Source: Afipia sp.
GTDB lineage: Bacteria > Pseudomonadota > Alphaproteobacteria > Rhizobiales > Xanthobacteraceae
Assembly (NCBI GenBank): GCA_030652315.1
Contig: JAUSAX010000038.1
Coordinates: forward strand, 1-64,000
DNA length: 64,000 bases
Direction: 5' to 3'
Shown here: positions 4,632 to 63,249 of the stretch, one piece after another
Layout: every line of letters starts with the position of its first letter
How positions within the stretch are numbered: position 1 is the stretch's first letter
Made by a program: the position numbers and the translations under genes
Notes under the pieces: model-generated
The model's database searches: none
The model's input: only the letters and a program-made list of their open reading frames with translations
What the model was told of the DNA's origin: nothing

Positions 4632-4800
4632 GGTTAACGCCTCACGCTGTTACGCTGATTTTTTTATGATGAACAAATGATTGCGCGCCCGCGGCCGGGA
4701 GTCCAGCCACTTGCGATAACAATGAGGAGATATGGTTTCCAACGGGATGCCGCGCGCGGCAAAACGGGCCCGCAAAGATTAACAGAGCGGGCAAAAAAGA

Positions 4801-4826
4801 GCCGCCGTTTCCGGCGGCTTTTGAAA
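4801..4826 (-). terminator. Bidirectional-looking terminator hairpin
   Basis: AAAAAAGA-GCCGCC-GTTTCC-GGCGGC-TTTTG; T-rich on both strands. Confidence 0.65.
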
Positions 4827-4989
4827 GTTGATAACAGGGAGGCGTCAAACAGAGTGGACAGGAGCCACTCGGTGTCCAAACAAGGACAATCAAAGTCATA
4901 AACCCGAAAGCTTAATACGCCGTAAATGAACGATTCCCTTTACGGTTCCTTTGCAATTGCTCGGAACCCGCACTCACGATTTCCTGCGC

Positions 4990-31084: not shown

Positions 31085-31558
31085 ATGTCCATTGCTCCCA
31101 CACTCCGGCAATATCTGATTGCTGAAAACATCCAGTACGACGAGATTCCGCACGAACTCACCATGTCGTCCATGCGCACGGCTGAAGCATGCCGCGTCTC
31201 GGGCGACCGCCTCGCCAAGGGCATCGTGCTGCGGCGCGACGGCGGCTATGTGCTGGCTGTCATGCCGGCATCGCATCACCTCCACCTCTTGGAACTGAGA
31301 AAAAAACTCGGTGAAGATGTCGATATGGCCGATGAAACCGAGATCGGTCAGCTGTTTCGCGACTGCGCGCACGGTGCGGTTCCGGCCGTTGGCAAATGCT
31401 ACGGACTGGATCTGATCGTCGATGACAGCATCGAGGCGCAGCCGGAGATCTATATGGAAGCCGGCGATCACGAGACGCTGCTTCATCTCAGTGGTGCACA
31501 GTTTGCGCGGCTGACGGCCAACGCACTTCATGGGCGCTTCAGTTCACATGATGCATGA
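31085..31558 (+). CDS. YbaK/aminoacyl-tRNA deacylase (EbsC/ProX-like)
   Basis: MSSMRTAEACRVSGDRLAKGIVLRRDGGYVLAVMPASHHLHL...GAVPAVGKCYGLDLIVDDSI. Confidence 0.88.
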   Translation: MSIAPTLRQYLIAENIQYDEIPHELTMSSMRTAEACRVSGDRLAKGIVLRRDGGYVLAVMPASHHLHLLELRKKLGEDVDMADETEIGQLFRDCAHGAVPAVGKCYGLDLIVDDSIEAQPEIYMEAGDHETLLHLSGAQFARLTANALHGRFSSHDA

Positions 31559-31692
31559 CTGAGGATTTGTCGTTGTACCTGCGGCGGGCATCCGGATGCC
31601 CGGGAACAGCTCATCGCGTGCCCGGCGCCGAAGCGCCTGCGCGATCGCATGACTTGAAAATCCTGTCATAGATGTTTATGTTCCGGCCTGCG

Positions 31693-31737
31693 TACGGGAC
31701 GACCCGTATTGCTTCAGCTTTCGTCGGGGACGGCCCC
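31693..31737 (+). promoter_or_regulatory. Candidate guanidine-II (mini-ykkC) riboswitch upstream of atpB paralog
   Basis: Two perfect hairpins with ACGR tetraloops: TACGGG-ACGA-CCCGTA (31693-31708) and GGGG-ACGG-CCCC (31726-31737), 17-nt linker. Confidence 0.75.
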
Positions 31738-31858
31738 ACATCTCCTGGAGAGATGTCGGGACGGTCGCTCCGGATAGGAAGCCTTCCCCTCATCATGCTC
31801 CGTTCAGGATCGCTCCGTGCCATCGGATGCGATTGCTTTTGCATGCGACAGGGACATC

Positions 31859-32608
31859 ATGGCCGGGCCGATTGAACAGTTCGAAATCAAGCCGATTCTG
31901 CAACTCGGCGAGATCGCCGGACAGCAGATAAGCATCACCAACTCGACCGTTTACATGTTCGTGACGGTCGGCATCATCGGCTTCTTCATGCTTCTTTCGA
32001 CGCGGCGAAGCGCGCTGGTGCCGGGACGGTGGCAGTCGGCTTCGGAGATGCTGTTCGAGTTCGTCGCAAAAACAGTGCGCGAAAACGCTGGCGAAGAAGG
32101 CATGCGGTTTTTTCCGCTGGTCTTTTCGTTGTTCACCTTCATTCTGGTGGCGAACCTGCTCGGCATGCTCCCCTACGCTTTCACCGTCACGAGCCATCTC
32201 GCCGTGACCTTGGCGATGGCGATGATGGTGTTTCTGACGGTCACCATCTACGGCGTGGCCCGCAACGGTTTCGGCTTTCTGCGGCTCTTCCTGCCGTCGG
32301 GCATTCCGCCATACATCGCGGTGTTCATCGTCCCCATCGAGGTGATTTCCTATCTGTCGCGGCCTGTGAGCCATTCCGTACGTCTGTTTGCGGTGATGCT
32401 CGCGGGGCATATCACGCTGAAGGTGTTCGCGGGTTTCGTCGTCGGTCTCGGCGGCCTCGGAACACTGGGCATTCTCGGGGCAGCAATGCCGTTTCTGATG
32501 GTCCTGGCCCTGACCGCGCTGGAACTCCTGATGTCCGTCATCCAGGCCTACGTCTTCACCATGCTGACCTGCATGTATCTCAACGACGCGCTGCACCCGG
32601 GGCACTAG
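31859..32608 (+). CDS. Orphan F0F1 ATP synthase subunit a paralog
   Basis: 249 aa; 156/249 identical positions to the AtpB at 62500-63249 by ungapped hand count; [18 protein letters not shown] retains the essential Arg. Confidence 0.93.
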
Positions 32609-32636
32609 CTCCAGGCGCACTCCGTATTCAAGTCCA

Positions 32637-32692
32637 GAGGAACGACCTCCCCATTTTGGGCGCAATGACCGGGACGGCCCGGCCCAATGGAG
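32637..32692 (+). promoter_or_regulatory. Second candidate guanidine-II-like element, immediately upstream of sugE
   Basis: GAGG-AACGA-CCTC (32637-32649) and CCGGG-ACGG-CCCGG (32669-32682); linker CCATT(TT)GGG (32651-32660) complementary to CCCAATGG (32683-32690), which overlaps the SD GGAG. Confidence 0.65.
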
Positions 32693-32700
32693 ATTTGAAA

Positions 32701-33021
32701 ATGGCCTGGATCTATCTCGCAGTGGCCGGCATTCTTGAAATCGTCTGGGCCTATTCGATGAAGCAATCGGAGGGTTTCACGAAGCTCGTTCCGAGCACCA
32801 TCACCATTGTCATGATGATTGGCAGCTTCGCGTTGCTGTCCATCGCCATGAGAACACTTCCCCTCGGGACCGCCTATACCATCTGGACAGGGATCGGGGC
32901 CGTCGGCGCATTCCTTGTCGGGATCATCGTCCTCGGCGAGGCGGTGACGGTCATGCGTCTCGCGGCCGCCGCCCTGATTGTTTCCGGTCTCGTCATGATG
33001 AAACTCTCGACGTCGGCGTGA
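32701..33021 (+). CDS. sugE: SMR family exporter, SugE/Gdx (guanidinium exporter) type
   Basis: MAWIYLAVAGILEIVWAYSMKQSEGFTKLVPSTITIVMMIGSFALLSIAMRTLPLGTAYTIWTGIGAVGAFLVGIIVLGEAV matches the SugE/Gdx pattern. Confidence 0.92.
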   Translation: MAWIYLAVAGILEIVWAYSMKQSEGFTKLVPSTITIVMMIGSFALLSIAMRTLPLGTAYTIWTGIGAVGAFLVGIIVLGEAVTVMRLAAAALIVSGLVMMKLSTSA

Positions 33022-33278
33022 TTCAGGAGCGCACGCGGGCGATCGAACGCCCTTTGTGCAAGACATTCGCTCGGCGGCGGCGTGTCGCTGACACGAGATT
33101 GTCTCAGGGTCAGGCGGCCGCGGCAATGGCAAGCTCAGCAGGCAAAGGACGGTTTTGTGAGCAAATGCCGGACGCGGCTTGATGCCCCTTCGATGGCGCA
33201 ACTCTGCTCATCCCTACCAAGGGGCGCATTCGTGCTTTAAGAGTTTCATCGAGGAAACACCCATCGGAGAAACTTTGT

Positions 33279-34553
33279 ATGAAACAAGCTTACGTACCGC
33301 GAACGACCAGTTACGGACTCAATCCGGGCGATGAACTGAACGATCTGCGCATGTCGGATCAGGTCCGTCCGCTTTTTGAGCACGTCAAAAAATTCATCCG
33401 GGAAACCGTCGATCCCATGCTGCTCGAATACACTCGGCACGGTGAGGGCAAAAAGGATCGCTGGAGCTTCACGCCGGGCCAGCTCGATGTCCTTGGGAAA
33501 GCCAAGGCAAAGGCCAAGGAAGAAGGCCTGTGGAACTTCTTCCTGCCCGACAGCGAAACCGGCGAAGGCCTCAAGAATCTCGACTACGCCTATATCGCGG
33601 TAGAGCTCGCGAAAAATCCGCTGGCATCCGAAACCATGAACTGCTCTGCGCCGGACACCGTCAACATGGAAGTGCTGGAGCGCGTCGGCACGAAAGAGCA
33701 AAAGGAAAAATGGCTGAAGCCGCTACTGAACGGTGAAATCCGCTCGGCCTACGCCATGACCGAACCGAATGTTGCATCCTCGGATGCCAAGAACATTTCG
33801 ACCACGGCAAAACTCGTCGGCGATGAGTGGGTGATCAATGGCGAGAAGTATTACATCTCGGGTCTTGGCGATCCCCGCTGCAAGATCATGATCGTCATGG
33901 TGCAAACCAATCCCGACGCGCCGCGGGGCAAGCAGCAATCCCAGATTCTCGTGCCAAAAGATACGCCCGGCGTTGAAATCATCGGCCCGATGCATGTGTT
34001 CGGGGCCGACCACGCGCCTCGCGGACACATGCATATGCGCTTCAACAATGTCCGTGTGCCGAAGGAAAATATCCTGCTCGGCGAAGGCCGCGGCTTTGAA
34101 ATCTCGCAAGTCCGCCTTGGGCCGGGCCGCATCCATCACTGCATGCGCACGATCGGAAAAGCGGAAAAGGCGCTCGACCTGATGGTGTCACGCGGCCTGA
34201 CGCGGGAAGCCTTTGGCAAGCAGATCGCGCATCTCGGCGGCAACCTCCAGATCATCGCGCAGGCACGCTGTGAGATCGAGGCGATGCGACTGATGGTGCT
34301 GAAGGCTGCCAAAGCCATGGATGTGCTGGGCAACAAGGAAGCTCGCGTCTGGGTCAGCATGGTCAAGGCCATGGTGCCCGAGCGCACCTGCAAGATCATC
34401 GACCAGGCGATTCAGATGCACGGCGCGACCGGCATTTCCGAATGGACGCCGCTCGCCGACATGTACGCTGACGTCCGGCATCTGCGCTTCGCCGACGGCC
34501 CCGACGAAGTGCACTGGATGGTGGTTGGCCGCCACGAGCTGAGCATGTCGTAA
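33279..34553 (+). CDS. Acyl-CoA dehydrogenase family protein
   Basis: YAMTEPNVASSDAKNISTTAKLVGDEWVINGEKYYISGLGDPR, IIDQAIQMHGATGISEWTPLADMYADVRHLRFADGPDEVH. Confidence 0.93.
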   Translation: MKQAYVPRTTSYGLNPGDELNDLRMSDQVRPLFEHVKKFIRETVDPMLLEYTRHGEGKKDRWSFTPGQLDVLGKAKAKAKEEGLWNFFLPDSETGEGLKNLDYAYIAVELAKNPLASETMNCSAPDTVNMEVLERVGTKEQKEKWLKPLLNGEIRSAYAMTEPNVASSDAKNISTTAKLVGDEWVINGEKYYISGLGDPRCKIMIVMVQTNPDAPRGKQQSQILVPKDTPGVEIIGPMHVFGADHAPRGHMHMRFNNVRVPKENILLGEGRGFEISQVRLGPGRIHHCMRTIGKAEKALDLMVSRGLTREAFGKQIAHLGGNLQIIAQARCEIEAMRLMVLKAAKAMDVLGNKEARVWVSMVKAMVPERTCKIIDQAIQMHGATGISEWTPLADMYADVRHLRFADGPDEVHWMVVGRHELSMS

Positions 34554-62499: not shown

Positions 62500-63249
62500 A
62501 TGGCCGATCCGATCCATCAATTTGAGATCCAGAAGATCTTCTCGCTGGGCCACATCGGCGGTCAGGAGATCGCGTTCACCAACTCATCGGCCTACATGTT
62601 CGGCGCGGTTGCCGTCGTCTCATTGCTGATGATCGGCGGCAGCGCCGGACGCCATCTGGTCCCCACCCGTTTCCAGTCCGTCGCGGAACTGTCCTATGAA
62701 TTCGTCGGGAACACGCTGAGAGAAAGCGTCGGCGACGAAGGCATGAAGTTCTTCCCCTTCGTGTTCTCGCTGTTCATGTTCATCCTGACCGCAAACATGA
62801 TCGGCATCATTCCCTACACCTTCACCGTGACCAGCCACCTCATCGTCACGCTGGCGCTGGCGCTGATGGTGTTCCTGACCGTGCTGCTCTACGGCATTTA
62901 CAAGAACGGCTTCAAATTCTTCAAGCTGTTCGTGCCCAGTGGCATTCCGCTTTATATCCTGCCGCTCATCATGGTGATCGAGGTGATCTCGTTCCTGTCG
63001 CGGCCGGTGTCCCACTCCGTGCGTCTGTTCGCGAACATGCTGGCAGGTCACATCACCCTCAAGGTGTTTGCGGGATTCGTAACATCGCTGAGCGCGCTCG
63101 GCGCTGTGGGCATCTTCGGTTCGATATTGCCGCTGGCGATGACGACCGCGCTCACCGGCCTCGAAATTCTCGTGGCTTTCCTGCAGGCCTACGTCTTCAC
63201 CATCCTGACCTGCATCTACCTCAACGACGCACTTCATCCCGGACACTGA
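62500..63249 (+). CDS. atpB: F0F1 ATP synthase subunit a
   Basis: [23 protein letters not shown]; followed by atpE and atpF'. Confidence 0.96.

Follow-up and report, generated by a model that had tools for sequence, protein, structure and literature searches.

Guanidine-II riboswitches (mini-ykkC, RF01068) found before sugE/gdx genes are the closest described systems to the leader analysed here. The class is defined by ACGR tetraloops, and the direct contacts with guanidine sit within single loops (PMC5486947). In the model of its action, the linker carries an anti-Shine–Dalgarno (anti-SD) sequence, and guanidine-induced kissing of the loops frees the Shine–Dalgarno sequence (SD), turning translation ON (PMC9300104, PMC9094411, PMC12186494). 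Tandem guanidine-II aptamers have also been published, and a review reports no stacking of complete guanidine-II switches (PMC9481103).

Organization of the locus

The window, that is, the whole stretch of 64,000 nucleotides of Afipia sp. DNA that was analysed, contains atpB2, an orphan gene for the F0 subunit a of the ATP synthase, and, downstream of it, sugE. Each gene is preceded by an RNA element, and the locus comprises the following features:

31654–31682, + strand: promoter-like TTGAAA-17-TATGTT ahead of element 1 (consensus scan only)
31691–31738, + strand: element 1, canonical-loop guanidine-II riboswitch in the atpB2 leader (Rfam RF01068, 37.4 bits)
31859–32608, + strand: atpB2, orphan gene for a second F0 subunit a (63% identity with the housekeeping AtpB)
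32637–32649, + strand: P1 hairpin of element 2, GAGG-AACGA-CCTC (read from the sequence)
32650–32668, + strand: linker of element 2, CCCATTTTGGGCGCAATGA, 19 nt, candidate anti-SD segment
32669–32682, + strand: P2 hairpin of element 2, CCGGG-ACGG-CCCGG (P1–P2: Rfam RF01068, 23.8 bits; model R1, described below, 43.9 bits)
32683–32692, + strand: post-P2 segment, CCCAATGGAG, which may pair with the linker and includes the SD GGAG (32689–32692)
32701–33021, + strand: sugE/gdx, predicted SMR-family exporter of the Gdx (guanidinium) type (Pfam PF00893)

The coordinates given in the earlier note for the hairpins, the SD and the ATG were all borne out by re-reading the sequence. P1 of element 2 consists of GAGG (32637–32640), the loop AACGA (32641–32645), which is the ACGA motif plus one extra A, and CCTC (32646–32649). 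This 5-nt loop, already recognized as one nucleotide above the canonical size, is AACGA in all five Afipia-group genomes carrying the locus. P2 has an ACGG tetraloop and the sugE ATG (32701) lies 18 nt past its end; the SD comes directly after P2, at a spacing of 8 nt from the ATG. Element 2 shares with guanidine-II leaders of sugE/gdx the two GC-rich hairpins, the ACGR motif in both loops, the short 19-nt linker and a position directly before the SD of a guanidine-related gene, that of a predicted Gdx-type SMR exporter. It differs from them in the 5-nt P1 loop (A+ACGA), in its score under the Rfam gathering score of 32 bits, which makes it visible at a relaxed threshold only, and in being the second switch of a module that starts with an orphan F0 subunit a. 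Because it departs from the tetraloop rule and falls under the Rfam cut-off, element 2 is filed as a variant and not as a canonical member.

The solved structures nearest to the sugE product are 8vxu (5e-30) and 6wk5 (3e-29), which we take to be Gdx proteins, the entries themselves being labelled SMR family; EmrE follows at 4e-12. The best model for the product is NCBIfam SugE (118.3 bits, just under the cut-off of 126). Being nearer to the Gdx structures than to EmrE, the protein is predicted to be a Gdx-type exporter. Its nearest named homologue, from Afipia massiliensis, is 98% identical. A second gdx-like gene, 52% identical, is found in the source genome (L003, contig C143:244–420), and the guanidine-II P2 3′ strand in its leader is apparently split by an insertion of ~110 bp relative to sister leaders.

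Element 1 is the only Guanidine-II match above the Rfam cut-off in the window. The two switches within about 1 kb that had been proposed for this locus are both present, but they serve different genes, element 1 atpB2 and element 2 sugE; the locus would have two switches because each controls its own gene. Element 1, atpB2, element 2 and sugE would form a guanidine-responsive two-gene module, probably on one transcript, and a consensus scan detected no promoter-like site on the + strand between the two genes. As in the tandem aptamers, two hairpins would act as a pair; unlike in the tandem aptamers, there are here two complete switches ~940 nt apart, each with its own gene and not in one leader (PMC9481103).

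Several observations concern the region behind element 1. Its P2 is followed at 31738–31760 by a hairpin, ACATCTC-loop-GAGATGT, with GGAGAGATG, conserved in Afipia (L155, L157, L158). The atpB2 start in Afipia is ~120 nt downstream of element 1, much farther than in most other genera. At L123:1280–1504, a 73-codon upstream open reading frame (ORF) between the guanidine-II element and atpB2 ends on the start codon (TGATG), which suggests that it may be translationally coupled to atpB2. The idea that a conserved upstream ORF separates element 1 from atpB2 was rejected, there being no such conservation in Afipia.

Identity and conservation of element 2

Leaders were sampled from 80 loci around sugE homologues in public genomes and from loci of 29 genomes of the genus. 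An automatic parser recognized an ACGR double hairpin immediately before the start codon in 96 of 100 sugE-homologue leaders; it mis-parses a few P1 choices, for example in L065 and L087, both excluded from later tests. From 28 leaders of other genera (25 preceding sugE homologues and three preceding atpB2), without Afipia and with 4-nt P1 loops only, a covariance model, R1, was derived. In the alignment of these leaders, 99.6% of the stem cells pair, slid controls being far lower, and the P1 and P2 stems covary, with changes on both sides at five of nine pairs. When the covariance search suggested in the earlier note was carried out with this held-out model, element 2 scored 43.9 bits and was the top match in the window (E 1.2e-7), the extra A of P1 being accepted as an insert; genome-wide, it ranks first (E 8.3e-6).

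In the five Afipia-group genomes carrying the locus, identity from P1 to the ATG is 94–100%, compared with 40–82% in the 24–35 nt spacer adjoining P1 upstream and 68–90% at sugE third positions. This near-identity beside a drifting spacer points to selection acting on element 2, beyond recent ancestry alone. Loss of the hairpins in relatives keeping sugE, named beforehand as an outcome that would speak against a switch, was not seen across these genomes.

GC-rich hairpins are easily found in a GC-rich genome and the Rfam score is under the cut-off, both of which would fit hairpins that arose by chance or have no regulatory role, for instance a repeat element or an intergenic relic. Such an origin is extremely improbable, since a relic would drift like the spacer, which contradicts the near-identity in five genomes, and since element 2 ranks first in its genome with the held-out model and the same position is occupied before sugE homologues in many other families. 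Only three GGGACGRCCC sites exist in the 64-kb window, all within elements 1 and 2; a genome repeat was rejected on this count and on the genome-wide R1 ranking. The reading of the sugE leader as a guanidine switch, first made from the letters alone, is supported by the held-out scoring, the conservation in sister species and the recurrence in other leaders, and the stretch before sugE is almost certainly, judging by its sequence, a guanidine-II-type RNA switch in a loop-enlarged form.

Loop variants of P1

In the 96 parsed leaders, the P1 loop is of 4 nt in 61, 5 nt in 24 and 6 nt in 11, counts that are inflated by related strains, and the P2 loop is of 4 nt in all. The 5-nt loop, A+ACGR, occurs in Afipia, Stenotrophomonas and two Mesorhizobium loci, and the 6-nt loop, CC+ACGA or CC+ACGT, in Bosea, sphingomonads and others. 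The sphingomonad loci L051, L058, L073, L107 and L114 have a CCACGT loop, conserved before sugE, which is not only enlarged but also departs from ACGR by a T in the fourth place of the motif. When 397 genomes of the phylum were scanned by pattern, 5-nt P1 loops turned up in the source genome and in three genomes of one other family, 6-nt P1 loops in five genomes, and GGAACGR P2 hairpins in none. Enlarged P2 loops were discarded as a control, as the pattern also caught ordinary G-extended stems.

The leaders of Stenotrophomonas and Mesorhizobium (L046, L072, L106, L111) are the most direct comparison, with the extra A at the same place of P1, a CCC...GGG linker, a similar P2 and sugE as the gene. 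They differ from element 2 in that no atpB2 match was found in their loci, and the Stenotrophomonas P1 stem is of 5 bp.

At its gathering score, Rfam misses nine of nine 5-nt and seven of seven 6-nt sugE leaders submitted and detects three of four with tetraloops, while R1 recovers the 16 of 16 enlarged-loop leaders that Rfam missed. Since all 16 escape the standard threshold, the guanidine-II class is undercounted there: a loop-variant switch is systematically missed before sugE, the best-known target of the class. The variant may already be drawn in the figures of the 2025 updated consensus (PMC12335538).

The enlarged loop also raises the question of ligand recognition. A guanidine-II descendant might have kept the ON logic while its enlarged P1 loop weakens or changes recognition, whether by favouring a related ligand, by binding at one site only or by a shift in cooperativity. 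The enlargement is confined to P1 and affects several lineages (in the parser's count, 24 five-nt and 11 six-nt P1 loops but no enlarged P2 loop), the 6-nt type often has ACGT instead of ACGR, and the class itself is defined by tetraloops with guanidine contacts inside single loops (PMC5486947). In the 5-nt type, however, the ACGA motif is intact and the rest is canonical, with linkers, P2 and spacing resembling those of tetraloop leaders, and the same Gdx-type exporter follows, so that a change of recognition in element 2 is very unlikely. Element 2 is, with high probability, an ON-type guanidine-II leader of sugE/gdx, one of two in the module.

Probable control of sugE translation

The part CCATTTTGGG of the linker (32651–32660) can pair with CCCAATGG (32683–32690) in a helix of eight pairs with two bulged U, which covers the GG of the SD, is present in the predicted fold and agrees with the published anti-SD model. 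The helix claimed in the earlier note therefore exists, but 10–24% of shuffled linkers pair as well: pairing equal to or better than the native one was reached by 101 of 1000 mononucleotide and 243 of 1000 dinucleotide shuffles. In consequence, SD masking was dropped as an independent proof of the switch. Compensatory changes in this pairing, which had been put forward as a check, did not appear in Afipia sp. OHSU_II-C1, where one linker–SD pair is lost without compensation. The predicted SD accessibility of 78 leaders does not differ from that of linker-shuffled controls (Wilcoxon p 0.68). A similar but stronger helix is found in Bosea sp. Root381, where 28 of 1000 dinucleotide shuffles do equally well.

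The P1 3′ strand is also able to pair with the SD, a pairing that the earlier note does not mention. In fold predictions, once P1 is opened, this strand extends the pairing across the remaining SD, and P1 would thus preclude the full masking helix and vice versa. Forcing P1 and P2 in the prediction does not alone free the SD, from which it follows that switching must depend on a tertiary contact. By analogy with the known class, the following mechanism may be proposed. Without bound ligand, the linker would join the C-rich 3′ strand of P1 in pairing with CCCAAUGGAG around the SD, and expression would be held down. Guanidinium bound in the ACGA and ACGG loops would lock P1 and P2 in a loop–loop (C-G/G-C) contact, which would stretch the linker and release the ribosome site, so that the Gdx exporter would be made as guanidine accumulates. 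The specific masking helix, as modelled, is an unproven candidate.

A guanidine switch could also act without masking the SD, by controlling mRNA stability, transcription attenuation or translational coupling from atpB2. The masking helix is statistically indistinguishable from chance, and sugE is 92 nt downstream of atpB2, probably on its transcript according to the consensus scan. Nevertheless, no terminator-like structure was found in 31550–33300, which speaks against an intrinsic terminator as the platform and fits translational control; the SD is placed right after P2, 8 nt from the ATG; many leaders likewise contain strands complementary to the SD; and the linker–SD duplexes of the leaders are stronger than those with permuted partners (a strength reached in 2 of 2000 permutations, relatedness uncontrolled). 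Control by these other routes is unlikely, and translational control is the most likely mechanism of element 2.

Distribution of the module and the AtpB2 subunit

The order guanidine-II, atpB2, guanidine-II, sugE is also present in Phyllobacterium, Rhizobium setariae, Tardiphaga, Nitratireductor, Bradyrhizobiaceae PARB1 and one further genome, and the double-switch arrangement repeats across several Hyphomicrobiales families. Kaistia has the same order, its second element being similar, if less regular; in Bosea, sugE comes first, followed by guanidine-II and atpB; a Phyllobacterium plasmid carries guanidine-II and atpB2 without an adjoining sugE. Clear atpB2 genes were found only in the source genome and two others among 199 genomes of the order, and in five of 29 genomes of the genus. 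In Mesorhizobium sp. YM1C-6-2 (L070:2772–2900), only the last 43 atpB2-matching codons were detected, perhaps a decayed atpB2, with guanidine-II and sugE intact downstream.

The housekeeping AtpB is encoded at 62500–63246 of the window. Nine genomes reached via these loci have, besides the guanidine-II-linked AtpB, an extra full-length AtpB without a guanidine-II pair; in a tenth genome with a guanidine-II-linked atpB, the second AtpB copy is divided between two contigs. A tree of 80 sequences places the 13 AtpB2 proteins in one clade (support 100/97), with this bacterial family's housekeeping AtpB as its sister; related loci of the group are L053, L048, L056, L085, L110, L123, L124 and L247. 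Three Bosea orphan AtpB fall apart from it. Their placement within the AtpB2 clade was rejected, since the well-supported branches are compatible only with two or more origins of guanidine-II-linked atpB; judging from the tree, Bosea placed an orphan atpB under guanidine-II independently. This second recruitment suggests real selection for the module. The atpB genes on plasmids of Sinorhizobium, Shinella and Methylobacterium were discarded as AtpB2, as those read (L248–L250) keep Asn at the N214 site; the Sinorhizobium gene belongs to an atpI-atpB-atpE-atpF operon and is not preceded by a guanidine-II pair.

Four substitutions, F165Y, N179V, V225M and L228I, are fixed in AtpB2 (13 of 13, against 0 of 64 housekeeping copies). 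An alignment on the RLFxN and QAY motifs, which is not structural, gives aR210, aN214 and aQ252 of E. coli as the counterparts of R175, N179 and Q229. The aR210 residue is the essential stator arginine of E. coli subunit a, and guanidinium resembles the arginine side chain. Guanidinium might act at the aR210 site, around which AtpB2 is altered by the change of aN214 to Val, of two residues near aQ252 and of Phe165 to Tyr. The aN214 residue belongs to the proton inlet (PMC11121307; see also PMC8754430), and Val at this position in E. coli is reported to give a much lower ATP-coupled proton conductance, with growth on succinate kept (PMC11121307). AtpB2 may be swapped into the ATP synthase while Gdx draws on the proton-motive force for export. 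It is conceivable, if rather doubtful, that the guanidine-induced module pairs the Gdx exporter with a replacement F0 subunit a and that AtpB2 makes the ATP synthase guanidinium-tolerant or less proton-leaky. Explanations resting on the substitutions alone are weakened by the Bosea orphan AtpB, which lack all four. If true, this would be a first clue that the ATP synthase proton channel is a guanidinium target.

The orphan ATP synthase subunit under guanidine-II is the more surprising part of the locus, and through the module a spare ATP-synthase subunit would become part of the guanidine response. Text searches combining guanidine riboswitches and ATP synthase gave no relevant paper, most subscription journals being beyond their reach, and, as far as could be found, the guanidine-II-controlled atpB2 is apparently without an earlier report of a guanidine link. 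Elsewhere in the window, Rfam identifies the sRNA BjrC1505 at 4792–4933 on the − strand (141.5 bits).
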